Below are positions 28,351 to 46,773 of a DNA stretch of 64,000 bases, piece after piece. Made by a program: the position numbers and the translations under genes. The DNA comes from Actinoallomurus bryophytorum. Lineage in GTDB: Bacteria; Actinomycetota; Actinomycetes; Streptosporangiales; Streptosporangiaceae. The DNA is taken from assembly GCF_006716425.1 (NCBI RefSeq), contig NZ_VFOZ01000001.1:5952001-6016000 (forward strand), written 5' to 3'. Position 1 is the stretch's first letter, and every line of letters starts with the position of its first letter. The notes under the pieces were generated by a model. That model was not told the DNA's origin, did not search any database, and worked only from the letters and a program-made list of their open reading frames with translations.

Positions 28351-29973
28351 GTGCGGATCGCGGTTGCCGAGGCATCGGACGACGGGGGAGTGCTGCTGCC
28401 CGTCGCCGAGGACGGCGCGCCGCTTTCTCCCGCCGAGGCGGTTCCCGATCTCGTCGCCGCGATCGCCGGCCGTGAGGCCTCCGGCGGTGACGTGCGCTGG
28501 GTCTGGGGAGCCACCTCGCGTGTCTATCCGCGGCTGCTCCGCGCCGGCGTGCGGCTCGCGCGCTGTCACGACCTGGAGCTCGCCGAGACGCTCCTGCTCA
28601 ACCACGCCGGGCGCTACGGCGAGCCACGCTCTCTGCGGGCCGCGCACGCCCGCCTCAGCGGGCTCGCGGTTCCCGACGACGTCGCGCCGGGCGACGGGCC
28701 GCCCACCCTCTTCGACGACCGTCCCGCCGACGACATCGACGCGGTCGTGGCCGTCCACGCCGACCAGCAGCGCCGCGCCGCGGAGGCGGGTGTCCGGCTG
28801 CTCGTCGCCGCCGAGTCGGCGGCCGGGCTCGCCGCCGCCGAGATGGGTCATGACGGGCTGCCCTGGCGGCCCGACGTGCACGACTCCCTGCTGACCGAGC
28901 TCATGGGCCCCCGCCCGGCGCCCGGGATGCGGCCGCGCCGGCTGCAGGAGCTCGCCGACCAGATCGGCGAGGCGTTCGGGCACCGCATCAACCCCGACTC
29001 CCCGGCGCAGGTCATCAAGGCGTTCGCAGCCATGGGCGTCACGGTCCCCTCCACCCGGTCCGGGGTGCTGAAAGAGGTCGAGCACCCGGCCGCCGGGCTG
29101 CTCCTCGCGTACAAGGAGCTCGCACGCCTCCACGGTGCGCACGGCTGGTCCTGGCTCGACTCCTGGGTGCGCGACGGGCGGTTCCGCCCGGAGTACGTCG
29201 TCGGCGGCGTGGTCTCCGGCCGCTGGGCCACCAACGGCGGGGGTGCCCTGCAGATCCCCAAGGTCCTGCGCCGCGCGGTCGTCGCCGATCCCGGCTGGAC
29301 CCTCGTGGTCGCCGACGCGGCCCAGCTGGAGCCGCGTGTCCTCGCGGCGCTCGCCGGCGACCGTGCCTTCGCGGCCGCCGCGGGTGAGACCGACCTCTAC
29401 GCCGCCCTGGCCGGCGCGTTCGGCGGCGCGCGTGACAAGGCCAAGATCGCACTGCTGTCGGCGATGTACGGCGGCACCAGCGGCGAGGCACCGCAACTGC
29501 TCGCCGTCATGCGCCGCCGCTTCCCGGTCGCCTACGAATACGTCGAGGCCGCGGCCCGTACGGGCGAGGCGGGCCGGTTGGTGCGCTCCGTCCTGGGCCG
29601 CACCTGCCCGCCCCCGTCCCAGGCGTGGCGCGAGCTCGCGGTGCAGGACGGCGGCGGCGCGGCCGTACGCAGCCGGGGCAGGTTCACCCGCAACTTCGTC
29701 TGCCAGGCCAGCGCGGCCGACTGGGCGACGGCCCTGCTGGCGACGCTGCGCCTTCGCCTGGCCGCGCTGGGCCGGAGCGAGGCCGACCCTCCGCGCCTGG
29801 TGTTCTTCCAGCACGACGAGGTGATCGTCCACACGCCCGAGGCGCTCGCCGAGGCGGTCTCCGGCGCCATCAAGGACTCCGCCGCGGAGGCCCGCCGGCT
29901 GATCTTCGGTGACACCCCGGTCCGCTTCCCCATGGAGACGACCGCGGTCGCCTGCTACGCCGACGCCAAGTGA
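28351..29973 (+). CDS. Family-A DNA polymerase-like protein (bifunctional 3'-5' exonuclease/DNA polymerase annotation type)
   Basis: This protein of about 540 residues resembles the C-terminal two-thirds of DNA polymerase I. Motif A reads DAAQLEPR (Asp322), motif B RDKAKIALLSAMYGG and motif C HDE (488-490). In motif B the conserved Phe (F762 of E. coli Pol I) is Leu. The N-terminal 170 residues occupy the exonuclease-domain position but show no DEDD metal ligands, so proofreading is unlikely. A helical thumb region lies around 180-290. This compact family is common in actinobacteria and its biological role is unclear. The start MRIAVAE fits relatives; GTG at 28330 is possible. Confidence 0.82.
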   Translation: MRIAVAEASDDGGVLLPVAEDGAPLSPAEAVPDLVAAIAGREASGGDVRWVWGATSRVYPRLLRAGVRLARCHDLELAETLLLNHAGRYGEPRSLRAAHARLSGLAVPDDVAPGDGPPTLFDDRPADDIDAVVAVHADQQRRAAEAGVRLLVAAESAAGLAAAEMGHDGLPWRPDVHDSLLTELMGPRPAPGMRPRRLQELADQIGEAFGHRINPDSPAQVIKAFAAMGVTVPSTRSGVLKEVEHPAAGLLLAYKELARLHGAHGWSWLDSWVRDGRFRPEYVVGGVVSGRWATNGGGALQIPKVLRRAVVADPGWTLVVADAAQLEPRVLAALAGDRAFAAAAGETDLYAALAGAFGGARDKAKIALLSAMYGGTSGEAPQLLAVMRRRFPVAYEYVEAAARTGEAGRLVRSVLGRTCPPPSQAWRELAVQDGGGAAVRSRGRFTRNFVCQASAADWATALLATLRLRLAALGRSEADPPRLVFFQHDEVIVHTPEALAEAVSGAIKDSAAEARRLIFGDTPVRFPMETTAVACYADAK

Positions 29974-29974
29974 C

Positions 29975-31243
29975 TCAGCGGCGAGGAGCCCACGACGGGC
30001 GCGAGTTCAACGCCTCCGCGTCCATGTCCGTCGTACGGCGCCAGGCCTCGTGCATCTCGGTCAGCTCGTCCGCGGTCAGGACGTCCTCGATCGAGGCGAA
30101 GCCGTTCGGAGCGCGTTCGGCGACCGTGTCCAGCAGCCGGTCCGCGGCCATGTCCCGGCAGGCCAGCACCACGGAGTTCGCCTCGTCGAGACGGGCGGCC
30201 TCGTACGCCTTCAACGCGTCCACCGGATCGTCGGTACGGGAGAGCTCGTAGGCCAGCACCCGCGCGTCGATGATCGCCAGCGACCCGCCGTTGGCGCCGA
30301 TCGGGTACATCGGGTGCGCGGCGTCGCCGACCAGCGTCACCCGCCGGCGGCTCCAGAACGGCAGCGGGTCCCGGTCCACCATCGGGTACTCCAGGATCTG
30401 CGGCGAGTCCGCGATGAGCCCCGGAACGTCGATCCAGCCGAACTTCCAGTCGGCGTAGTACGGCAGCACGTCCTCGAGCCGGCCCTGGCGTGTCCAGTCG
30501 GCGGCGTCCGTCTCGAGCCGGGTCTCCGGGGTCACCCGGACCTCGGCGACCCAGTTGACCAGGGCGCGGCCCCGGTCCTCGGCGGCCTTGGAGATCGGAT
30601 AGAACACGAGCCGCCCGTGTTCGTGCGAGCCGGCGACGATCATGGACCGGCCGGTGAGATACGGGTCGGCCTCGGCGATTCCGCGCCACATCCGGATGCC
30701 GTTCCACAGCGGCGCGCCCTCGCCGGGGTGCAGCTGCCGGCGTACGGCCGAGGAGAGCCCGTCCGCGCCGATGAGGACGTCGGCACGTAAACCGACCGGC
30801 GCGCCGCCCGTACGGGCGTGCAGGGAGACCTCCACCCCCTCCTCGTCCTCGCGGTAGGACTCGAAGACCAGCCCGGTGCGTACGGCCCCGGGCCCGAGCC
30901 GCTCGACCACCGCGTCATAGAGCAGCATCTGCAGCTCGCCTCGGTGGATGGAGTACTGCGGCCAGGCATATCCGGCGAAGCGTCCTCGGTCGTGGCTCAC
31001 GATGCGGTTCGCGTGCCGGTCGAGGCGGAGCATCTCCCGGGTCTGGATCCCGGTGGCCTCCAGCGCAGGGCCGAGACCCAGCTCGGTGAGCTCGCGTACG
31101 GCGTGGGGCTGCAGGTTGATGCCGACGCCGAGCGGCAGCAGGTCGCGCACCGCGTCGAGCACGACCACGTCGGCCCCGGCGGAGTGCAGGCTGAGCGCCG
31201 CCGTGAGACCGCCGACACCAGCGCCGACGACGACGACCCTCAC
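29975..31243 (-). CDS. FAD-dependent monooxygenase (PHBH-fold)
   Basis: This 422-residue class A flavoprotein monooxygenase has the FAD Rossmann motif VVVVGAGVGGLTAALSL at the N-terminus, a DG-like motif VLIGADGLSSAVRRQL (near residue 155) and the second FAD contact LVGDAAHPMYPIGANGG (near residue 295). It hydroxylates an aromatic or related substrate with NAD(P)H and O2. GTG at 31243 is chosen because it overlaps the stop of the 35-codon ATPase stub (GTGA); GTG at 31252 is possible. The two ThDP enzymes and importers nearby suggest a shared catabolic pathway. It ends 1 nt from the convergent polymerase gene. Confidence 0.87.
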   Translation of the reverse strand: MRVVVVGAGVGGLTAALSLHSAGADVVVLDAVRDLLPLGVGINLQPHAVRELTELGLGPALEATGIQTREMLRLDRHANRIVSHDRGRFAGYAWPQYSIHRGELQMLLYDAVVERLGPGAVRTGLVFESYREDEEGVEVSLHARTGGAPVGLRADVLIGADGLSSAVRRQLHPGEGAPLWNGIRMWRGIAEADPYLTGRSMIVAGSHEHGRLVFYPISKAAEDRGRALVNWVAEVRVTPETRLETDAADWTRQGRLEDVLPYYADWKFGWIDVPGLIADSPQILEYPMVDRDPLPFWSRRRVTLVGDAAHPMYPIGANGGSLAIIDARVLAYELSRTDDPVDALKAYEAARLDEANSVVLACRDMAADRLLDTVAERAPNGFASIEDVLTADELTEMHEAWRRTTDMDAEALNSRPSWAPRR

Positions 31244-31347
31244 CGCTGCCACCCGCCGGCGAACTCATTTCCATAGACCTCGAACGAGACATCTTCGAGA
31301 GTCGTCCGGTCGCTGTACATGTGGGTGATCCTTGACACTTCGAGCAC
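31240..31347 (-). pseudogene. 35-codon N-terminal stub of an ABC transporter ATPase
   Basis: The stub reads MLEVSRITHMYSDRTTLEDV and continues SFEVYGNEFAGGWQR to a stop. It aligns with the first 29 residues of the intact importer ATPase at 37820 ([20 protein letters not shown] then SFEVGDREL), then diverges before the Walker A motif. Its stop overlaps the monooxygenase start. It is best read as a truncated duplicate that now acts as a translated leader for the monooxygenase, though whether it is made as a peptide is not known. Confidence 0.8.
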
Positions 31348-31397
31348 GATTATGAACCCCACGGCTTCGCGTATCGGAAGCGCCGATGATAACGCAG
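31337..31397 (-). repeat. Duplicated promoter/5' region, copy A (upstream of the stub)
   Basis: A 24-nt block (31337-31360) is identical to 37810-37833. After a 10-nt spacer a 27-nt block (31371-31397) matches 37844-37870 with three mismatches. On the minus strand it carries a -10-like TATCAT about 40 nt before the stub GTG. The conservation of spacing suggests a promoter and operator copied with the ATPase 5' end. Confidence 0.85.
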
Positions 31398-31499
31398 AAC
31401 CGGCAGACGCGACCGGATGCCACATTAGGCGGCGAAAGTCACCGTGCGAGGTCGACAGATTGTTTGACGATTTCTGTCAAGCCGGTCATGGCATGTCGT

Positions 31500-33185
31500 T
31501 CAGTTCGGTGCGATGCGTACGTCGACAACGGCGGACCGTCCGGCCTCGACCGCCGAGAGCGCGCGCTCCAGAGCCGGGACCAGCACGGCCCGGTCGTCGA
31601 CGGACTCGCCGTGGGCGTGGCACGCGCGGGCGAGCGCGGCCAGGTCGGGCGCGGCACGGAACCGCGTGCCGACCGCGTCACCGCGCGCCGCCGAGACGCC
31701 GTCGGGGAACAGTTCGAAGACCGGCAGCCGGCTGGCGCGGTAGCCGTCGTTGTTGAGCACGACCGTCAGGGTGGGCGCGCCGGCCTCGGCGGCCAGGCAC
31801 AGCGCGGCCGTCGGCACGGCGAACATGAAGCTGCCGTCGCCGACGACCGCGATCACCCGCCGGTCCGGAGAGGCCAGCTTGATGCCGACCGCACCGCCGA
31901 GCGCCCAGCCCAGCCCCGGACTGCCGGTGCCGGCGAGGGTGCCCGGCCGGGTCCGCCGGACGAACGCGTGCAGCGCTCCCGCGTTGGTGACCATCTCCTC
32001 GACGAGGATGTCGTCCTCGCGCAGGACCGCGTTCAGCGCCTCGACCACCTCACGCGCCGCGATGGGTCCCTCGGCCGCGGCCGGGGCGGCGGGGGTCTCC
32101 CCGGTGCCGCCCGGCCACTTGGCCGCCAGGTCCACCTCGGGAAGCAGCGCCGCCACCTCGTCCAGGACCGTCGCCCCGTCACCGGTCACGGAGATGTCGG
32201 CAGGGAAGGACCACAGCGGCATGTCGGTCCGCAGCGGATCGGCGTCGATCTGCACGACCACGGCGTCCCCGCGCGGGTGGACGAACTTCGGGATCCACGG
32301 CACGTCGCAGTCGGCCACGACGAGCAGATCCGCCTCCGCGACGAGACGGCGGGCGGCCTCGGGCGACCCCACCCGCATCGGATGGGACGTGGCGATGTTG
32401 AGGCATCCGCTCTCGGGCGTGTCGACCACGCGGATGCCCGTGCGATCGGCCAGCCGGGTGATCGCGGCGAACCCCTCGGGCCGCCGCCCGGTCTTGGCGG
32501 TGATGAGCAGCGGCCGCTCGGCCCCGGCCAGGAGGCCGGCGATCCGGAGCGCGGTCTCCCGGCCGGCCATCGCCGGACCGGGTATCGCGTATCCGGACGT
32601 ACGGCCGGGCACGTCGGCGGGTGGGTCCATCAGGACGTCACGGGAGATCATGAGGTACGCGGGTCCGGGACGGCCTCCGCGGGCGATCTGCACGGCGCGC
32701 CCGACGCCGCGCGCCAGCATCTCCGACCGGGTGATCTCCAGGGTCAGCTTGGCGTATCCGCGCACGACGCCGGCCTGGTCGGGGACGTCCTGCTGCCAGT
32801 GGATCACGTGGGAGCGTCCGCCCGCGGACTCCGGGTCCTCCCCGTACGGGGTCTTCCCGGCGATGACGATGACGCCGGCGCGGTCGCGGAAGGCGTTGTG
32901 CATCATCGCGCCGAGGTTCTGCGTGCCGACGTCCACGTGGACGAACACACACTGCGGGCGCCCGGTGACCTGCCAGTACCCGTGGGCCGCCGCCAGCCCC
33001 ACCGACTCGAAGGTGCACGGGATGATCCGCGGGATCGGCACCCCGGCGTCGGTGAGCACCGCCGCGGCCTCCTGTACCGGAGCTGAGTCGGTCCCGGGAT
33101 TGAGGAACAGGTGCTCCACGCCGTGCTCGTGGAGCAGCCACAAAAGGTGTTCCGCGGTGGTCTTGGGCTTGAATTCGTCGGTCAA
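31500..33185 (-). CDS. Thiamine-diphosphate-dependent enzyme, acetolactate synthase/benzoylformate decarboxylase-like, copy 1
   Basis: This 561-residue enzyme has the three-domain ThDP fold. The N-terminal PYR domain contains the cofactor-activating Glu in CTFESVGLAAAHGY. The central domain resembles TPP_enzyme_M. The C-terminal PP domain carries the ThDP/Mg motif VVGDGSFMFAVP followed by LNNDGY. It is related to acetolactate synthase large subunits but lacks a neighbouring small subunit, so decarboxylation or carboligation of an unusual 2-keto acid is more likely than branched-chain synthesis. It follows the importer operon on the same strand after a 231-nt gap. Its paralogue is at 39514. 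Confidence 0.85.
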   Translation of the reverse strand: MTDEFKPKTTAEHLLWLLHEHGVEHLFLNPGTDSAPVQEAAAVLTDAGVPIPRIIPCTFESVGLAAAHGYWQVTGRPQCVFVHVDVGTQNLGAMMHNAFRDRAGVIVIAGKTPYGEDPESAGGRSHVIHWQQDVPDQAGVVRGYAKLTLEITRSEMLARGVGRAVQIARGGRPGPAYLMISRDVLMDPPADVPGRTSGYAIPGPAMAGRETALRIAGLLAGAERPLLITAKTGRRPEGFAAITRLADRTGIRVVDTPESGCLNIATSHPMRVGSPEAARRLVAEADLLVVADCDVPWIPKFVHPRGDAVVVQIDADPLRTDMPLWSFPADISVTGDGATVLDEVAALLPEVDLAAKWPGGTGETPAAPAAAEGPIAAREVVEALNAVLREDDILVEEMVTNAGALHAFVRRTRPGTLAGTGSPGLGWALGGAVGIKLASPDRRVIAVVGDGSFMFAVPTAALCLAAEAGAPTLTVVLNNDGYRASRLPVFELFPDGVSAARGDAVGTRFRAAPDLAALARACHAHGESVDDRAVLVPALERALSAVEAGRSAVVDVRIAPN

Positions 33186-33416
33186 GGACCCTCATTCCCC
33201 GGGGTCTGCGCGGGAGGGCTCATCGGAGGACATCACCGTTCCGATAGGGCGACCTCTTTTCGCGGGTTCCGGCGCGATCGAGCGGAACACTATCCTCGCC
33301 GAACCCCCGGCCCCAGGAAACTGTTCCGTTCTTCGGCACCGGGCGGAGACAACGGCCGTCCTCATACGGCCGGTCACGAGATGAGCGATCCGCGCGGCCC
33401 ATGTGGGGTGCCGGCC

Positions 33417-34193
33417 TCAGGAGCCGGCGCCGTCGCGTACGAGGCGGCCGACCTCCGCTCGCAGGCGGACGAACTCCCGTAGTTCCCTCGTCGTGATCTG
33501 GTCGCGCTCGGCCGGCAGGTCCACGGGCAGGTCGGCGATCACCGTCCCCGGCGCCCGGCTGAGTACCGCCACCCGGTCGCCGACATAGACGCTCTCGTCG
33601 ATGTCGTGCGTCACGAACAGGATCGTCATGCCCTCGTCCCGTACGCGCAGGAGGAGATCCTCCAGTTCCTCACGGGTCTGGGCGTCGACCGAGCCGAACG
33701 GCTCGTCCATCAGCAGCAGCGACGGCCGGAAGGCCAGCGCACGGGCGATGGACACGCGCTGCTGCATGCCGCCGGACAGCTGCCACGGGTACCGGCGCGC
33801 GGACGCGGACAGGCCGACCGCGTCGAGGGCCTGCCCGGCGGCGGCCCGCCGTGACTCCTTCGGCATCCCGCGGCGGCGCAGCGGCAGGGCCACGTTGTCG
33901 CGTACGGTCAGCCAGGGCAGCAGCGAGCGGCTGTAGTCCTGGGACACCACGGCGAGGTCGTCCGGCACGCCGGAGACCTCGGCTCCGCCCACGACGACGC
34001 GCCCCCGGCCGGGCCGCGTCAGCCCGGCGACGCACCGGAGCAAGGTGGACTTGCCGCATCCCGACGGGCCCACGATGCTCACCAGCTCGCCACGGGAGAC
34101 CTCGAGGTTCACGTCCCGCAGCGCGACCTGGCCGGAGTAGGAGTGGCCGACGTCAAGGATCTCGAGGCTCACGTGGCGATCTGAGTCCGTCAT
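33417..34193 (-). CDS. NitT/TauT-type ABC transporter ATPase, system 1
   Basis: This 258-residue ATPase has Walker A GPSGCGKST (near residue 43), the signature LSGGMQQR, Walker [13 protein letters not shown] and the switch His in VTHDID. The Q-loop [11 protein letters not shown] is typical of nitrate/sulfonate/taurine importers. It is the last gene of the system 1 operon, 16 nt after the second permease. It is about 60-65% identical by eye to the system 2 ATPase at 37059. Confidence 0.92.
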   Translation of the reverse strand: MTDSDRHVSLEILDVGHSYSGQVALRDVNLEVSRGELVSIVGPSGCGKSTLLRCVAGLTRPGRGRVVVGGAEVSGVPDDLAVVSQDYSRSLLPWLTVRDNVALPLRRRGMPKESRRAAAGQALDAVGLSASARRYPWQLSGGMQQRVSIARALAFRPSLLLMDEPFGSVDAQTREELEDLLLRVRDEGMTILFVTHDIDESVYVGDRVAVLSRAPGTVIADLPVDLPAERDQITTRELREFVRLRAEVGRLVRDGAGS

Positions 34194-34209
34194 GAGAATG
34201 AGGCTCCCG

Positions 34210-35037
34210 TTATGCGTCGGTACCGCGCGAGCCGCGGTGCCAGGCCAGCACCCGCCGCTCCACCGCGAGCAGGATGGCGTTCAGCACGTATCCGAGGATC
34301 CCGAGCAGGACGATGGCCGCCCACACGGTCGGCAGATCGGAGCGGCTCTGCGCGTCCGTGAGCTCGAAGCCGATCCCGTTGGCCGTCCCCGGCAGGAGCT
34401 CGGAGAAGACCATGAGGATGAGCGACAGCGACAGTGACAGCCGCAGCCCGGCGAAGATCTTCGGCAACGTCGCCGGGAAGATGATCTTCAGGACACGGTC
34501 GGCCGCCGACAGCTTGTAGACCTGGGCGGTCTCCATCTGCAGCGGGTCGACCGAGCGCGCGCCGTCCGTCGTGTTCAACAGGATGGGCCAGATCGCGCTG
34601 AAGACGATGGCGGCGATCTGCATCTGCGTGCCGAGCTTGAACAGAACGATGAAGACGGGCACGAGCGTGGGCGGCGGGATCACGCGGGCGAACTGGAACG
34701 CCGGGTCGAAATAGGCGAACAACCGCTCGGACCGCCCGAGGGCGAGCCCGAGCCCCACGCCCGCGACCAAGGAGATCGTCAGCCCGGTCGCCATGCGCAG
34801 CAGGCTCGGTACCACGTTGGCGGTGGCGTCGGAGGTCAGGAACAGGCGAGTGCCCGGCCCCGAGAACCACAGGTGGTACATCCGGGAGGTGATCCTCGAC
34901 GGAGGCGGGAAGAACGGGCTGTGCGCCGCGCGCGTGCCCACCTCCCAGGCGGCGACGGCGACGGCCAGCGCGAGCCAGCGGTGCAGGACCCCCGCGCCCA
35001 GCCGGACCACCGTACGGCCGCCGGCCCCCGCGCTCAC
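34210..35037 (-). CDS. ABC transporter permease, system 1, second subunit
   Basis: This 275-residue BPD_transp_1 permease has about six membrane segments. The EAA-type coupling loop appears in LQMETAQVYKLSAADRVLKIIFPATLPKIFAGLRLSL, which contacts the ATPase. Its start GTG overlaps the stop of the previous permease (GTGA). It belongs to the NitT/TauT group and pairs with the other permease as a heterodimer. The longer upstream open frame is antisense-type extension with no family similarity. Confidence 0.88.
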   Translation of the reverse strand: MSAGAGGRTVVRLGAGVLHRWLALAVAVAAWEVGTRAAHSPFFPPPSRITSRMYHLWFSGPGTRLFLTSDATANVVPSLLRMATGLTISLVAGVGLGLALGRSERLFAYFDPAFQFARVIPPPTLVPVFIVLFKLGTQMQIAAIVFSAIWPILLNTTDGARSVDPLQMETAQVYKLSAADRVLKIIFPATLPKIFAGLRLSLSLSLILMVFSELLPGTANGIGFELTDAQSRSDLPTVWAAIVLLGILGYVLNAILLAVERRVLAWHRGSRGTDA

Positions 35038-35858
35038 GATCGATCCTTCGTCTGGGAGACGTGCCAGTGGAACAGCCGCCGTTCCCCCAGGACCAGCGCG
35101 GTGTTGATGATCAGGCCGAGCATTCCCGCCCACACCGTGCCGGCCAGCACGTCCGTGGTGCCGTCGACCGTCTGCTGGGCCTGGGCGATGAAGACGCCCA
35201 GGCCCTGCCCGAAGCCGGACAGGATCTCGGTTCCCACGGCAAGGATCAGCGCGATGGCCGCGGCCAGCCGGATCCCGGTGGCGATGAACGGCGCGGCCGA
35301 GGGCAGGGAGACGAGCCAGGTCACCGAGAGCCTGCTGAAACCGAACGCGCGCAGCGTGTCCTTGGCCACCGGATCGACGTCCTGGAGCCCGTAGATCGTG
35401 TTGAAGAGTACGGGCCAGGTCGCGGCGTAGACGATGAGCGTGGCCTCGGTCCGCAGGCCGGTGCCGAGGATCAGGCTGACGAGCGGGATGAGCGCGACCG
35501 AAGGGATCGGCCGCAAAAACTCCACGATGGCCCGCACCGCCGTGTTGAGGACCGGAACGCTGCCGAGTAACAGGCCGAGCGAGACCCCGCCCCCGACCGC
35601 GATCGCCAGGCCGATGGCCCAGGCCCGCACGGTGCTCCAGACGCCCGAGAGGAACTCGGTGTCGCCCAGCAGGCCGACGGAGCGGGCGAGGACGGCCGAC
35701 GCCGGTGGAAGGTAGTCCCGGTCGACGATGCCCGCCCGGCCGAGGATCTCGCTCGCCGCCGCGAGGATCGCGAGCCCGGCGGCGCCCCGTACCCACCGGC
35801 CCGTACGCGTCAGGGCGGGGCGTTCGCCGGATGGTGCGGGCGGCTCTTCAAGGATCAC
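35034..35858 (-). CDS. ABC transporter permease, system 1, first subunit
   Basis: This 274-residue permease begins MILEEPPAPSG and has about six membrane helices. The coupling motif DVDPVAKDTLRAFGFSRLSVTWLVSLPSAAP is the EAA loop. The segment EFLRPIPSVALIPLVSLILG is the usual NitT/TauT permease signature. GTG start overlaps the stop of the binding-protein gene. It forms a heterodimer with the next permease. Confidence 0.88.
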   Translation of the reverse strand: MILEEPPAPSGERPALTRTGRWVRGAAGLAILAAASEILGRAGIVDRDYLPPASAVLARSVGLLGDTEFLSGVWSTVRAWAIGLAIAVGGGVSLGLLLGSVPVLNTAVRAIVEFLRPIPSVALIPLVSLILGTGLRTEATLIVYAATWPVLFNTIYGLQDVDPVAKDTLRAFGFSRLSVTWLVSLPSAAPFIATGIRLAAAIALILAVGTEILSGFGQGLGVFIAQAQQTVDGTTDVLAGTVWAGMLGLIINTALVLGERRLFHWHVSQTKDRS

Positions 35859-36838
35859 TGTGGCTGAGCCGCGAACACCAGACTCCTGACGTCGATCCTC
35901 TGTTTCAGCAGCCCGTCCTGGAGCATGAGGTCGGCCAGGTGCTGGAGCCGCACCTGGTCGATCGACGGCGGGAAGGCCGGGAGGTTCAGCGCCGATGCGG
36001 TGGCGGCGTCCAGGTGCGCGTAGGCGGGCAGCACCTGGTCGACCTGCTTGCGGTCGCTCGTCGCCAGTTGCTGTGCCTTCTGGATCGCGCGCTGGAAGGC
36101 CGCCGCCGTCTTGGGGTACTTGTCGGTGAACCGCTGGGTCGAGAGGTAGCCGCTGACCGGCAGTCCGGCCACGGCCGGGCCGCTACCGCCGTCGACGATC
36201 ATCTTGGCGCCCAGCTTGCGCGTCATGTCGGTGGCGAAGGGCTCGGCGGCGTGCACCGCGTCGACCTGCCCCTTCTGCAGCGCCGCGCCCATCTGCGGGA
36301 ACGGGATCGCGAGGTATCTCACCTTCGCCGGATCGACGTGGTCCGCCCTCAGGATCGCGTTGAGGGACAGCGACTGGATGTTGTTGCGGATGTTCACCGC
36401 GACCGTCCTGCCCTCCAGGTCCTTGGCCTGCTTGATGGGGGAGTTCGGCAGGGTGAGCACACCCATGAAGCGCGGAGCGGCGGCGGCTCCGGGAGCGAGG
36501 ATCCGCAGGTTCAGCGTGCCCTGGGCCTGCGCCTGCAGAAAGGTCACGTAATTGCCGCCCGCGATGACGTCGACCTGCCCGGTCTTCAGGGCGGGGAGTG
36601 CCTGAATGCTCTGCGCCACCGGTTTGATCTGTACGCGCAGCCCCTCGGCTTCGAAGAACTTGCGCTGCACGGCGATGTGCAGTCCGGCCGTGTCGACAAG
36701 GGGAAGTGCGGCGACGGTGACGGTCTTCTTCTCCAGACCGTCACCGCCGGATGACTGAGAACCGCCGCAGCCCGTCAGGAGAGCCGCAATGAGGACAACA
36801 CCCATTAAAAGGGTGGCACGGGATCTGGGTCTGCTCAT
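35855..36838 (-). CDS. ABC transporter substrate-binding lipoprotein (NMT1/THI5-like), system 1
   Basis: This 327-residue lipoprotein has the lipobox LLTGCGG near residue 25 and a two-lobed NMT1/SsuA-like binding fold. Typical segments are AVQRKFFEAEGLRVQI (residues 60-75), GQVDVIAGGNYV and AAEPFATDM. The substrate class of such proteins includes sulfonates, nitrate, pyrimidines and aromatic acids; it cannot be fixed here. ATG has AGGGAGTG upstream. It is the first gene of the four-gene system 1 importer operon. Confidence 0.87.
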   Translation of the reverse strand: MSRPRSRATLLMGVVLIAALLTGCGGSQSSGGDGLEKKTVTVAALPLVDTAGLHIAVQRKFFEAEGLRVQIKPVAQSIQALPALKTGQVDVIAGGNYVTFLQAQAQGTLNLRILAPGAAAAPRFMGVLTLPNSPIKQAKDLEGRTVAVNIRNNIQSLSLNAILRADHVDPAKVRYLAIPFPQMGAALQKGQVDAVHAAEPFATDMTRKLGAKMIVDGGSGPAVAGLPVSGYLSTQRFTDKYPKTAAAFQRAIQKAQQLATSDRKQVDQVLPAYAHLDAATASALNLPAFPPSIDQVRLQHLADLMLQDGLLKQRIDVRSLVFAAQPQ

Positions 36839-37000
36839 GACACTCCCTGGGGGCATTGAGCGGAGCAGCGGACAAACCGTCAGAAGGGCGGTCAGTCAAA
36901 TCACGTAGAAGTGATCATCGCGACCAGTCCGGAGGCTACAGCACCCCGTGAGGGAGAAAAAGGACGCACCTGGCCAGGTCATACATACCCCTGGATCAAA

Positions 37001-37051
37001 CGCCACGGCCCGGTCCGAACCGTGCGGTGAGGTTCGGGCCGGGCCGTGGCG
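37001..37051 (-). terminator. Strong terminator after ATPase 2
   Basis: Two 21-nt arms (37001-37021 and 37031-37051) pair almost perfectly around a 9-nt loop. On the minus strand the stem is followed by TTTGATCC. It ends the monocistronic ATPase 2 gene before the system 1 operon promoter. Confidence 0.8.
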
Positions 37052-37058
37052 TCGCTGC

Positions 37059-37820
37059 TCAGGCGGCTGTGGCGCCCGCGTCGCGTACGAGGCGGCCCAC
37101 CTCGGAGCGGAGGTGCACGAACTCCGGAAGCTCCCGGGTCTCGATCCGGTCGCGCTGGGAGGGCAGGCCGACGGCCAGGTCGCCGATCAGCCGCCCGGGT
37201 GCGCGGCCCATCACGAGGATCCGGTCGCTGACGTACACGCTCTCGTCGATGTCGTGCGTGACGAGCATGATCGTCATGTCACTGGCGGCGCGGACCTGCA
37301 GCAGCAGATCCTCCAGGTCCTCACGCGTCTGCGCGTCCACCGAGCCGAAGGGCTCGTCCATCAGGAGCAGCGTGGGCCGGTAGGCCAGCGCGCGTGCGAT
37401 GGCCACCCGCTGCTGCATTCCTCCGGAGAGCTGCCAGGGGTACTTGCCGCCGGCGTCGGCGAGGCCGACCTCGTCGAGTGCCGCCGCGGCGGCCTTCCGC
37501 CGGGCCGCGCGGTCCAGGCCGCGACGCCGCAGCGGGAAGACCACGTTGTCGCGTACGGACATCCACGGCAGCAGCGACCGGGAGTAATCCTGGAAGACGA
37601 CGGCCAGGTCGTCCGGGACTCCGTTCACCGCCCGGCCCGAGAGTCTGACCTCTCCTGCGGTCGGCGACACCAGCCCGGCGATCGCGCGGAGCAGCGTCGA
37701 TTTTCCGCAGCCCGATTTGCCGACGATGCTGACGAGCTCACGGTCTCCGACCTCGAACGAAACGTCGTCGAGAGCGATCTGATCGCCGTACGTGTGGGTT
37801 AGCTTCAGGACTTCGAGCAC
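37059..37820 (-). CDS. NitT/TauT-type ABC transporter ATPase, system 2
   Basis: This 253-residue ATPase has Walker [11 protein letters not shown]-loop [11 protein letters not shown], signature LSGGMQQR, Walker [13 protein letters not shown] and LVTHDID. It is flanked by terminators on both sides and has its own promoter, whose sequence is copied upstream of the monooxygenase. The probable partners are the permeases at 41216-42966 and the binding protein at 38067, because system 1 already has its own ATPase. The GTG start is conserved in the stub copy. Confidence 0.92.
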
Positions 37821-37870
37821 GATTATGAACCCCTAAGCTCCCTGTATCGGAAGCGCCAATAATAGCGCAG
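37810..37870 (-). repeat. Duplicated promoter/5' region, copy B (intact ATPase 2 promoter)
   Basis: This is the presumed parent copy of the segment at 31337-31397. It includes a -10-like TATTAT on the minus strand and the ATPase start codon. The identical 24-nt block spans the GTG and the 14 nt before it. Confidence 0.85.
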
Positions 37871-38003
37871 TGTTCCCGATTTGTGACCTATGCGTCGGGT
37901 CGTGCAGTGAAACTATCGCGGCGAGGTCACGACCTGGAATTGGATCGCCACGCGATGTGACGGTCCGTTCAAGAATCGCGGCCGATGGCCGTCCTTCTGA
38001 TGT

Positions 38004-38042
38004 CGCGGTCCGGCCGCCCCGAATTGGGCCGGCCGGACCGCG
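38004..38042 (-). terminator. Terminator after binding protein 2
   Basis: CGCGGTCCGGCC and GGCCGGACCGCG form a perfect 12-bp stem with a 15-nt loop, 24 nt after the binding-protein stop on the minus strand. It isolates that gene from ATPase 2. Confidence 0.7.
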
Positions 38043-38066
38043 GTGATGTCGCTTGACGAGGAGTGC

Positions 38067-39023
38067 TTACAGCATTCCCGAGACGTCGTAGTGCTGCTTG
38101 AGGACGCCGAGCTCGGTCATCAGGTCGGCGACGCGCTGCAGCCGGGTCTTGCTCAGCGAGCCCGGGTAGGTGTCGATCGTGATGGTCTGTGCGGTCTGCG
38201 GGCTCAGGCCCTTGACGTACGTCGGCAGGATCTGCCCGACCTGGTTACGGTCGGAGGCGGCGACCTTGGCCTTGGCCATGGCCGCGTTGAACGCGGCGAC
38301 GGTCTTGGGATTCTGCTTCGCGAACTTCTGCGATGCGATGTACCCGCCGGACGGCAGGTTGGCCGTCGGACCGCTCATGGTGTCGACCACCATGCGTGCG
38401 CCGAATTTCGCCTCCGACTGGCTGTAATAGGGCTCGGTCATGAAAGCGGCGTCGATTGAGTGGTTCTGCAGGGCGGCCTGCATATTGGGGTACTGGATCT
38501 CGACCAGGTGGACCTGGTTCGGCGTGACGCCCGCGTTCTTCAGTGCCGCGAAGGTCAGCAGCGACGGGAAGCCCTTCGTGTTGATGACACCGATCTTCTT
38601 CCCCTTGAGCTGTGCCGCGTTGTGGACCGGGGAGTTCGGCAGGGTGACGATCGGGTACAGGTTGCTGCGTCCCTGGTAGCCGTCGGTCACCACCTTGACC
38701 TTCACGCCGGCGCTCGCCGCCTGGACGATCGGGATGTACGCGCTGTAGGCAAAGTCGACTCCGCCGGACATCACTCGGGAGATGGTCTCGGACCCGTTGG
38801 TGAGAATCGTCGGAGTGACGTTGAGGCCTTCAGCCTTGAAATATCCCTTGCTGACACCCAGATAAACGGCTGCGGCGTCGGGAATCGGAAGGAGGCCAAT
38901 CTTGATATTCGTCTTCTCCGGGCCCCCGGATTTCTTCGGCGAATCGGAGCCGCCGCATGCGGTCAGCGCCGATGTGGCAAGCATGGCTATGGCTGTCGCA
39001 ATAGTCCAGCGACGGATTTTCAT
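38067..39023 (-). CDS. ABC transporter substrate-binding lipoprotein (NMT1/THI5-like), system 2
   Basis: This 318-residue lipoprotein has the lipobox LTACGG near residue 24 and an NMT1-like fold with LGVSKGYFKAEGLNVTPTI, SGGVDFAYSAY and DAAFMTEPYYSQSEAKFG. GAGGAG lies 7 nt before ATG. It is a distant paralogue of the system 1 binding protein (both have YP..TLPNSP). It is monocistronic and divergent from the ThDP enzyme at 39514, with which it probably shares regulation. Confidence 0.87.
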   Translation of the reverse strand: MKIRRWTIATAIAMLATSALTACGGSDSPKKSGGPEKTNIKIGLLPIPDAAAVYLGVSKGYFKAEGLNVTPTILTNGSETISRVMSGGVDFAYSAYIPIVQAASAGVKVKVVTDGYQGRSNLYPIVTLPNSPVHNAAQLKGKKIGVINTKGFPSLLTFAALKNAGVTPNQVHLVEIQYPNMQAALQNHSIDAAFMTEPYYSQSEAKFGARMVVDTMSGPTANLPSGGYIASQKFAKQNPKTVAAFNAAMAKAKVAASDRNQVGQILPTYVKGLSPQTAQTITIDTYPGSLSKTRLQRVADLMTELGVLKQHYDVSGML

Positions 39024-39513
39024 GGAGCTCCTCGATGGGGATTCGCGCTGGACCCTTAGTCGGTGAACGCGGGGAGGCAGGGGCAGGCGTCGACCACCGG
39101 CTTCAGGTCTCGAAGTAACGGCCGCGCCAGAGTATAGGACCGCAACATCCGTACGTCTGGGCACCTTCAGCAAAATTTGCCACACATCCGGACGATCCGG
39201 GCGATAGTTACATAGAGTACATATCGCATGTTCGGAACGTGGTTGCGGCGGGCGCTGACCGTGAGCTGAAAAGTATCGGTTACGTGGGGTAACTACTTTT
39301 TGTCAGGTTCGTGCTGCTATAACATCCCATGTCTGCTGAGCCTGGCCGGCGGAGGGGACGCTCCGGTGCGGAGCATGCCGCGTTGCCAGGCCGTCCTGTC
39401 CGCAGGCACCAAGGAAAGAGGGTCATGTCCCGACGTCCAGTCATCCCAGTCCCACCGCCGGCGACGCGTGGCCGAAACGTCCGGCCGTCCGCACCGATCT
39501 CGGGGAGGACGGT
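39024..39513. other. Divergent promoter region of binding protein 2 and ThDP enzyme 2
   Basis: This 490-bp non-coding region includes an AT-richer core around 39205-39330 (TTACATAGAGTACATAT, and TATAAC at 39318) that probably holds both promoters. A regulator gene is not present in the window, so control is unknown. No RNA gene or riboswitch motif was found here. Confidence 0.5.
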
Positions 39514-41166
39514 GTGACCGGTCCTGGCCGCAGCGGCGGACGAGCCGTTCTGGAGACCCTTCGCGCATGGGGCGTACGTCGCGTCTTCACCTGCCCGGGT
39601 AGTACCGAGGCGGCGTTCCTCGACGCCACCCTGGACCACCCGGACTTCGAGGTGATCCTCACTCCCCACGAGTCGATCGCCGTGTCGGCCGCCGACGGCT
39701 ACGCCCGTGCCACCGGTGAACCGGCGGTCGCCTATCTCCACACGCACGTCGGCCTGGCGAACAGCCTCGGCCACCTCAATGCGGCCCGGCTCGCCCACTC
39801 GCCGGTGGTGGTCCTCACCGGCCTGAAACCGGCACTGCTCCAGGCGCACGGAGGCTTCACCTGTATCCAGGACACCGGTCGCCTGGCCGAGCCCTATGTA
39901 CGGTCCTACTGGCAGTCGCTCCGTACCGAGGGGATCCCCGAGGACCTGACCCGCGCCTTCCGCCTCGCGCTCACCGAGCCGGCCGGGCCCACGTGGCTGG
40001 GGCTGTCACAGGACCTCATGAACGACACGTGCACCGCGCCGGTGCCCGACCCCGAACGGTTCCGCCCGCGCGCGCGTACGGCACCCGATCCCGAGCGGAT
40101 CCGCGAGGTCGCGGGCATGCTGGCCACGGCCACCAGCCCCCTGCTCGTGGCCGGCGCGGAGGTCGCGCGGCACGACGCGGTCGCCGACCTGATCGCCCTG
40201 GCCGAGCGGCTGGGCGTGCCGGTGATGAACGAGGACCGGCGGACGTACGAGCGCCCTGGGTTCCCCACGTCGCACCCGAACTACGTCGGTCTGTACGACG
40301 TGAAGCGTCCCGTGGTGGGCGACAGCGATCTGATCGTGTTCGCGGGCTGCCGCCTGTTCACCGAGTTCGAGGTCCCGCGCGGTCCCGATGTGCCGGAGAG
40401 CGCCCGCGTCGTGCACATCCACACCGACGCCGCCGAGATCGGAGCCATCCACGGCGTCGACCTGGACATCGTGGCCGATGAGGGTCTGGCGCTCTCCGGG
40501 CTGCTGGCCGGGCTGCCGGAGGGGGACGTCGCGGTACGGACGGACCGGGTGGCGGAGGCGCGCACGGAGTACCTCGCCGACACCGGTCCGCTGCCGCCCG
40601 AGACCGAAGGCGTGGAGAACGTCGCCGCGGTCGCGGACGCGCTGGCCGCGGTCGTCGACGATCAGACGACGGTCGTCGGCGATGCCACGACGACCGGGGC
40701 GATCCTCCTGCGGAGGCTTCCCCAGAATCCGCCACACCAGTACTTCACCAGCTCATCCGGTTCGCTCGGCTGGGCCATGGGCGCCGCCATCGGCATCAAG
40801 CTCGCGATGCCGGACCGCCACGTGGTCGCGGTCTTGGGCGACGGCGCCTTCCAGTTCGGCCCACAGGGCCTGTGGGTGGCGGCCCGCTACCAGATCCCGG
40901 TCACCTACGTCGTGATCAACAACGAGTCCTACGCCGCCGTGGCGGCCGCACTGCGGCGCTATGGCGGAACCGCCGTCGAACGCCAGGAGTTCCCGGGCAA
41001 GGACCTGTCGGGCATCGACGTCGCCGCGATCGCCCGTGGGTACGGGGTGCACGCCCAGCGCCTGCACCACGCCTCCGAGCTCGGTGAGGCGATGGCGAAG
41101 GCCAAGGCCCACCCCGGTCCGTCACTGATCGAGATCATGACCGACCCGGACTACCTCGGTCCCTGA
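39514..41166 (+). CDS. Thiamine-diphosphate-dependent enzyme, acetolactate synthase/benzoylformate decarboxylase-like, copy 2
   Basis: This 550-residue ThDP enzyme has the activating Glu in TPHESIAVSAADGYARATG, the central domain, and the ThDP/Mg motif VLGDGAFQFGPQG followed by VINNESY. It resembles benzoylformate decarboxylase and acetolactate synthase. The GTG start has GGGGAGGAC upstream. It is only distantly related to the ThDP enzyme at 31500, so it is not a recent duplicate; the two may act at different steps. It converges on the permease pair of system 2. Confidence 0.85.
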   Translation: MTGPGRSGGRAVLETLRAWGVRRVFTCPGSTEAAFLDATLDHPDFEVILTPHESIAVSAADGYARATGEPAVAYLHTHVGLANSLGHLNAARLAHSPVVVLTGLKPALLQAHGGFTCIQDTGRLAEPYVRSYWQSLRTEGIPEDLTRAFRLALTEPAGPTWLGLSQDLMNDTCTAPVPDPERFRPRARTAPDPERIREVAGMLATATSPLLVAGAEVARHDAVADLIALAERLGVPVMNEDRRTYERPGFPTSHPNYVGLYDVKRPVVGDSDLIVFAGCRLFTEFEVPRGPDVPESARVVHIHTDAAEIGAIHGVDLDIVADEGLALSGLLAGLPEGDVAVRTDRVAEARTEYLADTGPLPPETEGVENVAAVADALAAVVDDQTTVVGDATTTGAILLRRLPQNPPHQYFTSSSGSLGWAMGAAIGIKLAMPDRHVVAVLGDGAFQFGPQGLWVAARYQIPVTYVVINNESYAAVAAALRRYGGTAVERQEFPGKDLSGIDVAAIARGYGVHAQRLHHASELGEAMAKAKAHPGPSLIEIMTDPDYLGP

Positions 41167-41177
41167 GCTGATCTGAG

Positions 41178-41210
41178 CCGGGGGGAGCGGCCGCGGGCCG
41201 TTCCCCCCGG
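41178..41210. terminator. Bidirectional terminator between ThDP enzyme 2 and permeases
   Basis: CCGGGGGGAGCGGCC and GGCCGTTCCCCCCGG form a 15-bp stem with one G-U pair and a 3-nt loop. It lies between convergent genes. Confidence 0.7.
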
Positions 41211-41215
41211 CGCGG

Positions 41216-42085
41216 TCACTGCTCCACGCGCCGCGCGCCCCGATGCCAGGCGAGGACGTGCCGCTCGACCCAGAGCAGCGCGGAGTTGAGCGTGTATCCG
41301 AGGATGCCGAGGAGCACGATGACCGACCACATCTCGGGCAGCTCGAAGGAGTCCTTGGTGGTGAAGAGCGTGTAGCCGATGCCGTTGGTGCCACCGACCA
41401 TCTCCGAGATCACCATCAGGATGATCGCCATGGACAGGCTGATCCGGAGTCCGGCGAAGATCTTCGGGGCCGCGGACGGCATGATGATCATCCGGAAGCG
41501 CTGGAGCCGCGTCAGGCCGAACACGTTCGCGATCTCCATCTGAAGCGGCTCGACCGATCGTGAGCCGTCGATCGAGTTGAGCAGGATCGGCCACAGGACC
41601 CCGAAGACGATCACCGCGAGCCGCATCGTCAGACCGAGCTTGAACAGAACGATGAAGACCGGGATCAGCGCGGGCGACGGGATGGCGCGGAAGAACTGGA
41701 TCAGCGGGTCGACATAGTCGAGCAGCCGCTCGGACCGGCCGAGCAGCACGCCCAGGCCGACCCCGATGACGACGGCCAGACCCCAGCCGCCGAGCATCCG
41801 CCCCAAACTCGGCAGAATGTTGCCGGTCGCCGCCGGCGTGAGGAAGACATGGCTCACCGGGCCGGTCAGCCACAGGTGGTACATGCTCCGGGCGATCACC
41901 GTCGGCGCCGGGAAGAAGATCTTCTCGTCCTCGGGCACGGCGACATTGGTCGCGAGCTGCCAGAGCGCGACCGCCACCGCGAAGACGGTCCAGCGGAGGG
42001 CGATGTCCGTCAGCCCGGTCCGGGCGAACGGCCGGCGCCTCCGCTCCGGCGGAGCGACGGGGGCGGTTGTCATGTCGGCGGTCAT
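41216..42085 (-). CDS. ABC transporter permease, system 2, second subunit
   Basis: This 289-residue permease starts MTADMTTAPVAPP and has about six helices. The coupling loop reads EIANVFGLTRLQRFRMIIMPSAAPKIFAGLRISL. It closely matches the system 1 permease at 34210 (shared PVFIVLFKLG, WPILLN, PLQME, VLAWHRG). ATG overlaps the stop of the upstream permease (ATGA). Confidence 0.88.
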   Translation of the reverse strand: MTADMTTAPVAPPERRRRPFARTGLTDIALRWTVFAVAVALWQLATNVAVPEDEKIFFPAPTVIARSMYHLWLTGPVSHVFLTPAATGNILPSLGRMLGGWGLAVVIGVGLGVLLGRSERLLDYVDPLIQFFRAIPSPALIPVFIVLFKLGLTMRLAVIVFGVLWPILLNSIDGSRSVEPLQMEIANVFGLTRLQRFRMIIMPSAAPKIFAGLRISLSMAIILMVISEMVGGTNGIGYTLFTTKDSFELPEMWSVIVLLGILGYTLNSALLWVERHVLAWHRGARRVEQ

Positions 42086-42966
42086 GCCGTCCTCCCGAGA
42101 CGCTCGAAGTGCCAGCGGAACATCCGCCGCTCCAGATATCGCATGCCGAGGTCGATCAGGTAGCCGAGCAGACCGGCGATCGCCGCGGCCGCGAAGACGA
42201 CGTCCGCGTTGCCCGCGACGGCGCTCGCGCTCAGCACGAAGATCCCGATGCCGTGCTCTCCGCCACCGGCGATCAGCTCGGTGCTGATGGTGACGATGAG
42301 GGCGATCGACGAGGCCACGCGAATGCCGGTCGCGACGAACGGTGCGACGCTGGGCAGTGCTATCCGGGTGAGGATCACCAGCCGGCCGAGGCCGAAGGAT
42401 CGCGCCATCTCGCGCGGAACCGGGTCGACGTCGCCGACGGCGTAGATCGTGTTGATCAGGATCGGCCACAGGGCGGCGTACGCGGCCAGGATCTGCTCGA
42501 TCTTGGACTGCTCGGCCACCATCAAGATGACGAGGGGGATCAACGCCACGGCGGGAATGGGGCGCAGGAACTCGATCAGGACCCGGACCGCGGAGTTGAC
42601 CCACGGCAGGCTGCCGAGCACGAGCCCGCTGGGCACGGCGATCAGAATGGCGATGAGCAGGCCGACCGCCCACGCCTTCATCGTGAAGCCGACGTCCTGG
42701 AGAAAGCCGCCGTTCGTCAAAAGGTCGCCGATCCGGAGCAGCACGGCCGACGACGGCGGCAGGTAAGAACGGTCGACCAGTCCTATCCGCCCTATGACCT
42801 CGCCGGCCAGCAGAAACACCAGCACGCCGGCCATACCGCGGATGACCCGCACGCGGCCTGGCGACGAGGGCCGGAGCCTGCCACCTCGGGATTTGCTGAC
42901 GGGCGGCCGGGTGGCCGCCTTCGGACCCGTGGCCGGGACCGGAGTCCTGACACTGCGGTCAGCCAA
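42082..42966 (-). CDS. ABC transporter permease, system 2, first subunit
   Basis: This 294-residue permease has a 40-residue basic N-terminal extension, about six helices, and the coupling region DVDPVPREMARSFGLGRLVILTRIALPSVAP. EFLRPIPAVALIPLVILMV is shared with the system 1 paralogue. The start is TTG, preceded by AGGGAG in a context (cccccagggagtgat) nearly the same as that before the system 1 binding protein start. It forms an operon with the second permease; ATPase 2 and binding protein 2 are nearby but separately transcribed. Confidence 0.87.
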   Translation of the reverse strand: MADRSVRTPVPATGPKAATRPPVSKSRGGRLRPSSPGRVRVIRGMAGVLVFLLAGEVIGRIGLVDRSYLPPSSAVLLRIGDLLTNGGFLQDVGFTMKAWAVGLLIAILIAVPSGLVLGSLPWVNSAVRVLIEFLRPIPAVALIPLVILMVAEQSKIEQILAAYAALWPILINTIYAVGDVDPVPREMARSFGLGRLVILTRIALPSVAPFVATGIRVASSIALIVTISTELIAGGGEHGIGIFVLSASAVAGNADVVFAAAAIAGLLGYLIDLGMRYLERRMFRWHFERLGRTA

Positions 42967-43580
42967 TGATCACTCCCTGGGGGATGGGGGCGTGAGCGCC
43001 TGCCTGACGTGCGCGGAAATGAACAAATCGCGCCGGGCGGGCGTCCTTCCGGGCCGGTGTCCGCCGGATGCCGCCCCCTGGTCTGGCGGCGAGGCGAACC
43101 TATCCTAATGTCAGATACGGACCATTACCCCTGGGGATTCCGGGCAACGGTGTCGACACCCTCGGTAACCACCGGTCGGGGTTAAGGCGTTGTGAAGGCG
43201 AAATCTCTGGGCCGTTGTTACGGGTAGGTCGCCGCCGGTGCACTCCCCGTGATCATTAGCTCTCGGTTCGATCTCGTTGGGACGGTGAGTAGCCGCATGC
43301 TCTTGCCGTCTGGTCCGGTGGCGACAATGATGTTGGCCGCATTCACGCGGGCCCCCGCCTTCCGGGTGGGATGGCCTTGTGCGAAACCGAGGAAAAACTA
43401 GATAGATGGGACATAAGACCGCTTCGGATATATGCTGTCGGTTCCGTTTTGGGCAGCGTGACCACTCTCTGTCGCAGTAACCGTACAAGGGTGGCGCGTC
43501 CCACCTCCCGTCGGTTGTTTGCACCGTTCCGCAGGGGGTCCAAGACGGGTTTGATTCGGTGAGATGCAGCGGAAGGTAGC
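42967..43580. other. Intergenic region before the conservon
   Basis: This 614-bp divergent region holds no gene that can be supported. The stretch at 43390-43450 is AT-richer (with TATATG at 43430) and may hold the conservon promoter. No RNA motif was recognised. Confidence 0.5.
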
Positions 43581-46771: not shown

Positions 46772-46773
46772 GG

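Follow-up and report, generated by a model that had tools for sequence, protein, structure and literature searches.

A 64,000-nucleotide stretch of the 9.47 Mb genome of Actinoallomurus bryophytorum, called the window hereafter, carries at 29975-42966 two complete NitT/TauT-type ATP-binding cassette (ABC) importers, A and B, two divergent thiamin diphosphate (ThDP) enzymes and one class A flavin monooxygenase (FMO). A complete conservon with a NIT-type sensor lies beside them at 43671-47803. There is about an even chance that the locus is a conservon-associated module for the uptake and conversion of aromatic (2-oxo) carboxylates, with arylglyoxylates as the substrates of importer A. With the flux presumed to run inward, importer A would bring in an arylglyoxylate, which is an aromatic 2-oxo acid, or a closely related compound. 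The ThDP enzyme of the A operon, a benzoylformate decarboxylase in many relatives and ThDP1 in the window, would decarboxylate this acid or join the product to another carbonyl. Importer B would take up an aromatic carboxylate, and the PhzS-type monooxygenase would hydroxylate it, possibly releasing CO2. Relatives of the locus have an O-methyltransferase in place of the monooxygenase of importer B or next to it. The divergent conservon would sense an extracellular anion, most likely an importer substrate, and regulate the importers. The module consists of known parts in an assembly not found in print. In the open-licence literature, where NitT/TauT was searchable only as two words, no paper was found that links conservons or benzoylformate decarboxylase to NitT/TauT importers. 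The available portions of three papers that mention both a conservon and an ABC transporter (PMC4316618, PMC3123327, PMC3897704) make no link between them.

On the minus strand, read from right to left, the genes are PermA2, PermB2, SBP2, ATP2, SBP1, PermA1, PermB1, ATP1, ThDP1 and FMO, with ThDP2 on the plus strand between PermB2 and SBP2. All importer, ThDP and FMO genes show the coding G+C pattern. Importer A is composed of the binding protein SBP1 (35855-36838; NMT1, 1.3e-23), whose lipoprotein signal agrees with the start at 36838, the permeases PermA1 (35034-35858; BPD_transp_1, 3.6e-16) and PermB1 (34210-35037; an open frame), and the ATPase ATP1 (33417-34193; ABC_tran, 7.2e-32). SBP1, PermA1 and PermB1 are joined by 4-nucleotide overlaps. 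Importer B is composed of the ATPase ATP2 (37059-37820; ABC_tran, 8.7e-33), the binding protein SBP2 (38067-39023; NMT1, 1e-30), and the permeases PermB2 (41216-42085) and PermA2 (42082-42966), which overlap by 4 nucleotides. The two importers are paralogous, as the first-pass annotation had proposed; the identity is 68% for the ATPases, 56% for PermB, 47% for PermA and 36% for the binding proteins. All the genes it listed are present, with small corrections of starts and coordinates, such as the ATG of SBP2 at 39023.

The conservon genes are on the plus strand, divergent from PermA2, in the order cvnA-cvnB-cvnC-cvnD. CvnA (43671-46373) is a NIT-HAMP-HATPase sensor (Pfam NIT, 4.3e-55; HAMP; HATPase_c). 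Its start is the ATG at 43671; an alternative GTG at 43581 is possible. CvnB (46370-46771) is a roadblock/LC7 protein (PF03259, 5.6e-24), CvnC (46768-47223) a DUF742 protein (PF05331, 4e-33), and CvnD (47243-47803) a small GTPase (PF03029, 4.5e-34). The four genes form one operon with two 4-nucleotide overlaps and one 19-nucleotide gap, and they encode the kinase-like, roadblock, DUF742 and GTPase domains that define a conservon. The statement in the first-pass annotation that no regulator is linked is thus wrong, and the linkage extends across the family. The NIT domain of CvnA aligns with that of NasR (4akk, E 4.3e-8). Among 98 copies, the arginines R68 and R134 are kept in 96 and R257 in 84. 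R68 and R257 are at or next to two arginines that we take to contact nitrate in NasR. An anion is a plausible ligand of the NIT domain, judged from these residues.

The conservation of this arrangement was studied in 249 genomes of the host's order, all of which were searched with both SBP1 and FMO. A relative of SBP1 (E <= 1e-35) was found in 212 genomes and a relative of FMO (E <= 1e-90) in 106. From these genomes 100 stretches were fetched and gene-called. Fetched stretches are numbered as loci with L, and genomes of relatives with G. The genes were called with a simple codon-score picker of open reading frames, and small genes, CvnC above all, were missed in several loci. The identity thresholds (53.5% for the monooxygenase, 50% for A-type binding proteins and 60% for ThDP3) were fixed after the data were seen.

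Forty-three loci were chosen on FMO alone at an identity of at least 53.5%. Importer genes are present in 42 of them and CvnA in 36. Six of the seven loci without CvnA keep importer genes, and the seventh, L179, has neither. Likewise, the 11 loci within L126-L145 with an FMO at least 53.5% identical include 10 with importer genes and nine with CvnA. Importer and CvnA are both found in 20 of the 20 loci that were mostly picked for the nearness of SBP1 and FMO, as expected from the choice. At the thresholds used, neither importer genes nor CvnA were found in any of the 17 sampled loci whose FMO is less than 53.5% identical; the less similar FMO paralogues in L201, L202 and L204 are near a different, distant NitT/TauT set outside these thresholds. 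The use of FMO as a marker of the module everywhere was abandoned, as copies outside the order stand without the importer. One of these, in L208, is 56% identical to FMO; its neighbourhood includes a terpene synthase, an M1 peptidase and a distant conservon.

The neighbourhood of CvnA gives the same picture. SBP or PermA is the divergent neighbour of 72 of 97 long CvnA copies in the fetched loci, which were chosen for SBP or FMO. The same pair of NIT conservon and importer is observed outside the host's family (L230). The linkage between NIT and NMT1 genes was counted in 15 genomes, for which a low number of contigs was the main criterion of choice. NIT genes are present in 13 of them. For 17 of the 104 NMT1 genes, a NIT gene lies no more than 15 kb away; in 2000 random placements the number of such genes averaged 2.4 and never exceeded 9. 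The 17 observed genes represent one locus per genome, in 10 of the 13 NIT-bearing genomes. Importer-linked copies account for 15 of the 25 best NIT scores and for 19 of 91 overall. In other genera (L115, L121, L122, L123, L141, L162, L168, L222, L223 and L225), the locus adjoins SRP54 and ribosomal protein S16 genes, and a second conservon is often present on the other flank of the importer.

The binding proteins fall into two types. In a tree of 79 binding proteins, SBP1 belongs to clade A (support 100/99), where its neighbour is the Actinomadura sp. DC4 copy. Among the rest, SBP2 clusters with two copies of the same genus; the B type comprises all remaining non-A binding proteins and is not one clade. 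Among the 26 A-type binding proteins in L106-L225, 18 have within 6 kb a ThDP enzyme that is distinct from those of the window, here called ThDP3, and one has ThDP1. In L210, the contig breaks before the place of ThDP1, which is found on L014 of the same genome. The 89 B-type binding proteins have FMO within 6 kb in 74 cases and an O-methyltransferase in 22, many loci having been chosen on FMO. Enzyme content differs between genera, and an amidohydrolase (L126) and a carbon-nitrogen hydrolase (L138) occupy these places in single loci. In L226 and L227, a divergent cytochrome P450, the enzyme kind of CvnE near conservons, is beside an A-type importer.

ThDP3 provides the clearest substrate clue. 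The one copy tested scores 691.8 bits against the NCBIfam benzoylformate decarboxylase model NF005485 (cut-off 493) and matches solved benzoylformate decarboxylases with an E-value of 7.8e-123. All 18 fetched copies that are at least 60% identical are in the A operon, and 11 of them overlap PermB1 by 4 nucleotides. The catalytic Ser, His and His, found by motif, are kept in all 18; presumably they correspond to S26, H70 and H281 of the Pseudomonas putida enzyme. In the 249 genomes there are 25 ThDP3 matches. Nineteen are at least 68% identical, including the query itself, and each of these adjoins an A-type binding protein hit when the listings are compared by eye. Six are weaker, and the four of them that were fetched (L216-L219) are without this importer. 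A distant NitT/TauT set is found close to one of the four. The unit is also found at other places. The linear megaplasmid of Streptomyces sp. NBC_01483 (L239) carries SBP1-PermA1-PermB1-ThDP3-ATP1, with no conservon in the stretch, and L029 and L034 (L211 is the same place as L034) carry SBP1-PermA1-PermB1-ThDP1 among unrelated genes. L015 and L018, from the same genus, have ThDP3 and ThDP1 with one importer.

The first-pass annotation had proposed a neighbourhood search to see whether the ThDP enzymes are passengers. It is supported that the enzyme of importer A is no mere passenger, because 18 of 18 ThDP3 copies are in the A operon, 19 of 26 A-type loci have ThDP3 or ThDP1, and the unit recurs at other places. 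Its claim that each importer is paired with a ThDP enzyme holds for A, where ThDP1 is co-directional. It fails for B, where ThDP2 is on the opposite strand inside the importer and the usual partner is a monooxygenase or an O-methyltransferase.

A benzoylformate decarboxylase encoded within the A operon suggests that the substrates are arylglyoxylates, and several related loci have neighbours of aromatic catabolism. L232, from another genus of the family, contains an IclR regulator, two binding proteins, two permeases, an ATPase, a ThDP enzyme of the benzoylformate decarboxylase type, which at 460.9 bits stays below the cut-off of 493, and an aldehyde dehydrogenase. The opposite flank carries a CoA-transferase gene, a thiolase, pcaH (PDB 2pcd, E 2.1e-72), pcaG and pcaB, the last two named from plasmid matches at 51% and 46%. 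A route of this kind runs from hydroxybenzoylformate through hydroxybenzaldehyde and hydroxybenzoate to protocatechuate. The gene order of L232 would fit this expectation, although the hydroxylase was not seen there. Relatives of SBP1 are present in seven plasmid records, four of which were inspected (NBC_01483, pTC1, pLDW-10 and Amycolatopsis sp. AA4). In pTC1 and pLDW-10 the relatives (32-33% identical) have genes for an IclR-family regulator, an amidase, a ring-hydroxylating dioxygenase and an ABC transporter nearby; the Amycolatopsis sp. AA4 locus has no such neighbours. Three of the nine plasmid records with ThDP1 relatives were inspected. Two are aromatic catabolic loci, in pBHB (aldehyde dehydrogenase, protocatechuate dioxygenase) and in Novosphingobium (pcaF, catC), and the third, in Thermomicrobium, is not.

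The enzymes of the window are less clear. ThDP1 (31500-33185, minus strand; Pfam TPP_enzyme N, M and C) belongs to the PRK08327 family (NF006203, 550.7 bits, cut-off 456). ThDP2 (39514-41166, plus strand) is benzoylformate-decarboxylase-like. Since they are only 28% identical, the two are different subfamilies by sequence. The earlier label of acetolactate synthase, considered here in the form of an enzyme without a small subunit, was rejected for both (109.3 and 208.7 bits against the TIGR00118 cut-off of 538.35). Also discarded was the idea that ThDP1 relatives are generally importer-linked. A ThDP1 relative in Geodermatophilus sabuli (L053) is accompanied by an NMT1 importer, aconitase-type pairs, a creatinase-type peptidase and an ornithine cyclodeaminase-type gene, which looks like a different pathway.

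A number of observations weigh against the proposed module. In the genome of the window, nothing matches ThDP3 with E <= 1e-110. The PRK08327 family has no named function, and its name was not found in the open-licence papers searched. ThDP2 scores only 333.8 bits against NF005485, below the cut-off of 493; of the catalytic set it retains the Ser and the first His, and the second His is replaced by Phe. A NitT/TauT binding protein or permease is present in only 12 of 79 loci with ThDP1 relatives, some on short contigs, and in none of seven such loci of Sphaerisporangium. Five distant relatives of ThDP1 (L060, L066, L076, L082 and L085) share a neighbour family and have no such importer. The stretches of L029 and L034 contain no ATPase. 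In six of the 26 A-type loci a ThDP enzyme is absent and the contig is unbroken where it would be expected. In L226-L229, which hold four A-type importers from a different family, the stretch contains no ThDP enzyme and no conservon. Four further FMO copies at 55-62% identity (L193 in the order, L206-L208 outside it) are without this importer. No ring-cleavage gene was met among the window genes whose families were looked up. The regulation of the importers by the conservon is something we infer, from the divergent and conserved layout. Finally, the linkage is that of one inherited ancestral locus per genome (10 of 13 genomes), so its copies are not independent. For the window in particular, the aromatic assignment of the ThDP substrates is tentative.

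The last points could also be read in another way. A and B could be two unrelated ordinary importers of aliphatic anions, neighbours by vertical inheritance, with ThDP enzymes that form acyloins or act on aliphatic 2-oxo acids, and with a monooxygenase, an O-methyltransferase and a conservon that are unconnected. One ancestral locus per genome, an enzyme content that varies between genera, and the occurrence of ThDP1 and the monooxygenase without importers are all consistent with this. However, importer A and its ThDP enzyme form a unit at other places, with the overlap in 11 of 18 copies, the benzoylformate decarboxylase residues are kept in every copy, and related sets are found in aromatic catabolic clusters. 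Taken as a whole, the aliphatic explanation appears unlikely.

The structure models of the binding proteins bear on two further explanations. AlphaFold2 models of SBP1 (pLDDT 89.5) and SBP2 (pLDDT 87.7; modelled from a start at 39053, with ten extra N-terminal residues) are confident, and the best PDB fold for both is SsuA 2x26. Their nearest folds are SsuA and TauA, and the lists also include binders of thiamin precursor, bicarbonate, nitrate and PQQ (PqqT). Substrate-specific models were not reached. The binding proteins score 108.8 and 123 bits against TIGR01728 (SsuA_fam; cut-off 163.5), and the ATPases 219.9 and 228.3 against the taurine model (357) and 213.4 and 224.8 against ntrCD (291.8), the best NCBIfam model of ATP1 being of the taurine/nitrate type. 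The permeases are also below the cut-offs, PermB2 for NF040733, TIGR01183 and TauC, and PermA2 for NF040733, SsuC and TauC.

The NIT domain, with its conserved arginines and its similarity to the nitrate regulator NasR, would suit a module in which the sensor and the NitT-type importers serve nitrate or nitrite. The monooxygenase and the ThDP enzymes would then be passengers at the locus. The transporter type, the linkage of NIT and NMT1 genes, and a nitrate-soaked bicarbonate-transporter domain at rank 12 and 13 of the two fold lists would be in line with it. The binding proteins nevertheless fit NMT1 (PF09084) better than NMT1_2, NrtA appears only at rank 31 and 35, behind SsuA and TauA, no cut-off of a nitrate model is reached, and no nitrate reductase is present among the neighbours looked up. 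Loci that lack the conservon (L239, L034) still have a ThDP enzyme with the importer. In addition, the accessible text of a 2026 paper on actinobacterial G protein systems (AGPS), another name for conservons (PMC13343842), states that CvnA proteins probably detect ligands other than nitrate or nitrite through their NIT domains. We regard a nitrate module as unlikely.

The other explanation is that the importers are ordinary ones for organosulfonates or taurine, with ThDP1 and ThDP2 similar to sulfoacetaldehyde acetyltransferase. It draws on the best solved folds, SsuA and TauA, and on the best ATPase model, taurine. The neighbour family common to the five distant ThDP1 loci, which lack this importer, is a luciferase-type monooxygenase in L066, where it was tested, and luciferase-type proteins form the superfamily of the sulfonate monooxygenase SsuD. 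The ThDP enzymes score only 78.8 and 164.8 bits against the Xsc model (676.4), the SsuA_fam cut-off is missed as well, and the conserved A-operon enzyme of relatives is a benzoylformate decarboxylase, which leaves a sulfonate role highly improbable. The first-pass annotation had suggested the uptake and degradation of an organic anion, for example an aromatic or sulfonated 2-keto acid. The unit for uptake and conversion is supported, probably for an aromatic (2-oxo) acid, and the sulfonated variant is not supported, given the missed SsuA and TauA cut-offs.

FMO (29975-31252, minus strand) belongs to the PRK07538/PhzS subfamily (NF005720, 554.8 bits, cut-off 400). Its best PDB matches are 2rgj and 3c96 (E 3.5e-111), and 192 of 365 aligned residues (53%) are identical to 2rgj. 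These entries, titled 'flavin-containing monooxygenase', are what we take to be PhzS, 5-methylphenazine-1-carboxylate 1-monooxygenase. In a further explanation, aromatic compounds of neighbours, such as phenazine carboxylates, might be imported and inactivated by hydroxylation or O-methylation, with the conservon as an alarm. The O-methyltransferase, found near 22 of the 89 B-type binding proteins, is of the Methyltransf_2 family, which is that of PhzM. An efflux gene of the EmrB type is near the monooxygenase in several loci, and no complete pathway was seen at the locus. Against such processing of signals or toxins, PhzM (2ip2) is only the 24th match of the methyltransferase, and the context of decarboxylase, aldehyde dehydrogenase and pca genes in L232 favours catabolism. 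The phenazine explanation is kept only as a rival, since less similar monooxygenase paralogues lie in other contexts, and it is considered quite improbable. The EmrB-type MFS gene is observed in L109, L146-L148, L150, L155, L157 and L159, with the family searched on the L109 copy only; possibly it exports the monooxygenase product. The importer operons of L220-L223, L225 and L235 include an O-methyltransferase, and a monooxygenase is absent from the stretches fetched, that of L220 being a short contig.

The history of the locus is implied by close relatives. G003 has importer B only, in the order FMO-ATP2-SBP2-ThDP2-PermB2-PermA2-CvnA (L125). In the window, importer A is between FMO and B, and G006 has the matching halves on two contigs (L014 and L210). 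Adjoining FMO is a remnant (31260-31413, minus strand) of an ATP2-like ATPase gene, composed of the upstream region and the first codons. It is 82% identical over 155 nucleotides to the start of the ATPase at the same place in L014 and 79% identical over 122 nucleotides to ATP2. In L014, an ATPase 85% identical to ATP2 stands beside FMO, where the window holds only the first codons. ThDP2 is also present in G003 and G006 on the strand opposite to the importer (L125, L210), and the best explanation is that it is an addition to the B side in the window.

A search for shared operator sites by pairwise 10-mers and repeats in the intergenic regions yielded no operator. It returned the ATPase remnant, terminator-like hairpins at 37000-37052, 38004-38042 and 41177-41211, and a widely spaced inverted pair (42961-42973 with 43249-43261). 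On the left flank, a family A DNA polymerase of the bifunctional exonuclease/polymerase type (28330-29973, plus strand) marks the border of the locus in many relatives. Directly after the conservon and a GDSL gene are a LacI regulator and a ribose/arabinose-type ABC importer (48747-52545, plus strand), which are kept in two relatives of the same genus (L017, L019). Two adjoining ClpP-like protease genes, named by eye from their translations, follow at 52596-54193 on the minus strand.

A conserved importer and diagnostic enzymes beside a NIT sensor leave only a few aromatic acids as candidates for its signal. It is possible, though doubtful, that the NIT conservons of the family are in general receptors for the aromatic anions of the divergent importer, and thus G-protein-like sensors coupled to that importer and the converting enzyme, which for importer A would mean an arylglyoxylate and benzoylformate decarboxylase. 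If true, a NIT conservon would have an organic ligand, and arylglyoxylates would have an ABC transporter class and route.

Compared with known systems, the locus combines familiar features in a different way. FMO is 53% identical to PhzS over 365 residues and passes the PRK07538 model NF005720. The substrate of PhzS cannot be transferred to FMO, since the genomes concerned contain further, less similar paralogues at other places. No phenazine genes are present among the neighbours looked up. The importers share with SsuABC, TauABC and NrtABCD the gene set, the NMT1 family of the binding protein and the fold. They differ in reaching no substrate-specific cut-off and in being linked to enzymes of aromatic-acid types. 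In comparison with the mandelate/benzoylformate pathway, the window itself lacks ThDP3, and the importer is of the NitT/TauT ABC type, whereas two plasmid loci annotated with mdlC carry MFS or tripartite-tricarboxylate transporter genes. The ThDP3 of relatives passes the benzoylformate decarboxylase model and keeps the catalytic residues of MdlC, and the order in L232, a decarboxylase-type enzyme followed by an aldehyde dehydrogenase, is that of the same two mdlC loci. According to the accessible text of the AGPS paper (PMC13343842), large-genome actinomycetes have several conservons per genome, and the accessory genes for P450 (cvnE) and GAF (cvnF) proteins are overwhelmingly with CvnA that has no sensory domain. 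The conservon of the window has all four genes in the known order, with the NIT, HAMP, HATPase, roadblock, DUF742 and GTPase domains, and its NIT-type CvnA is paired with an importer instead of these accessories.

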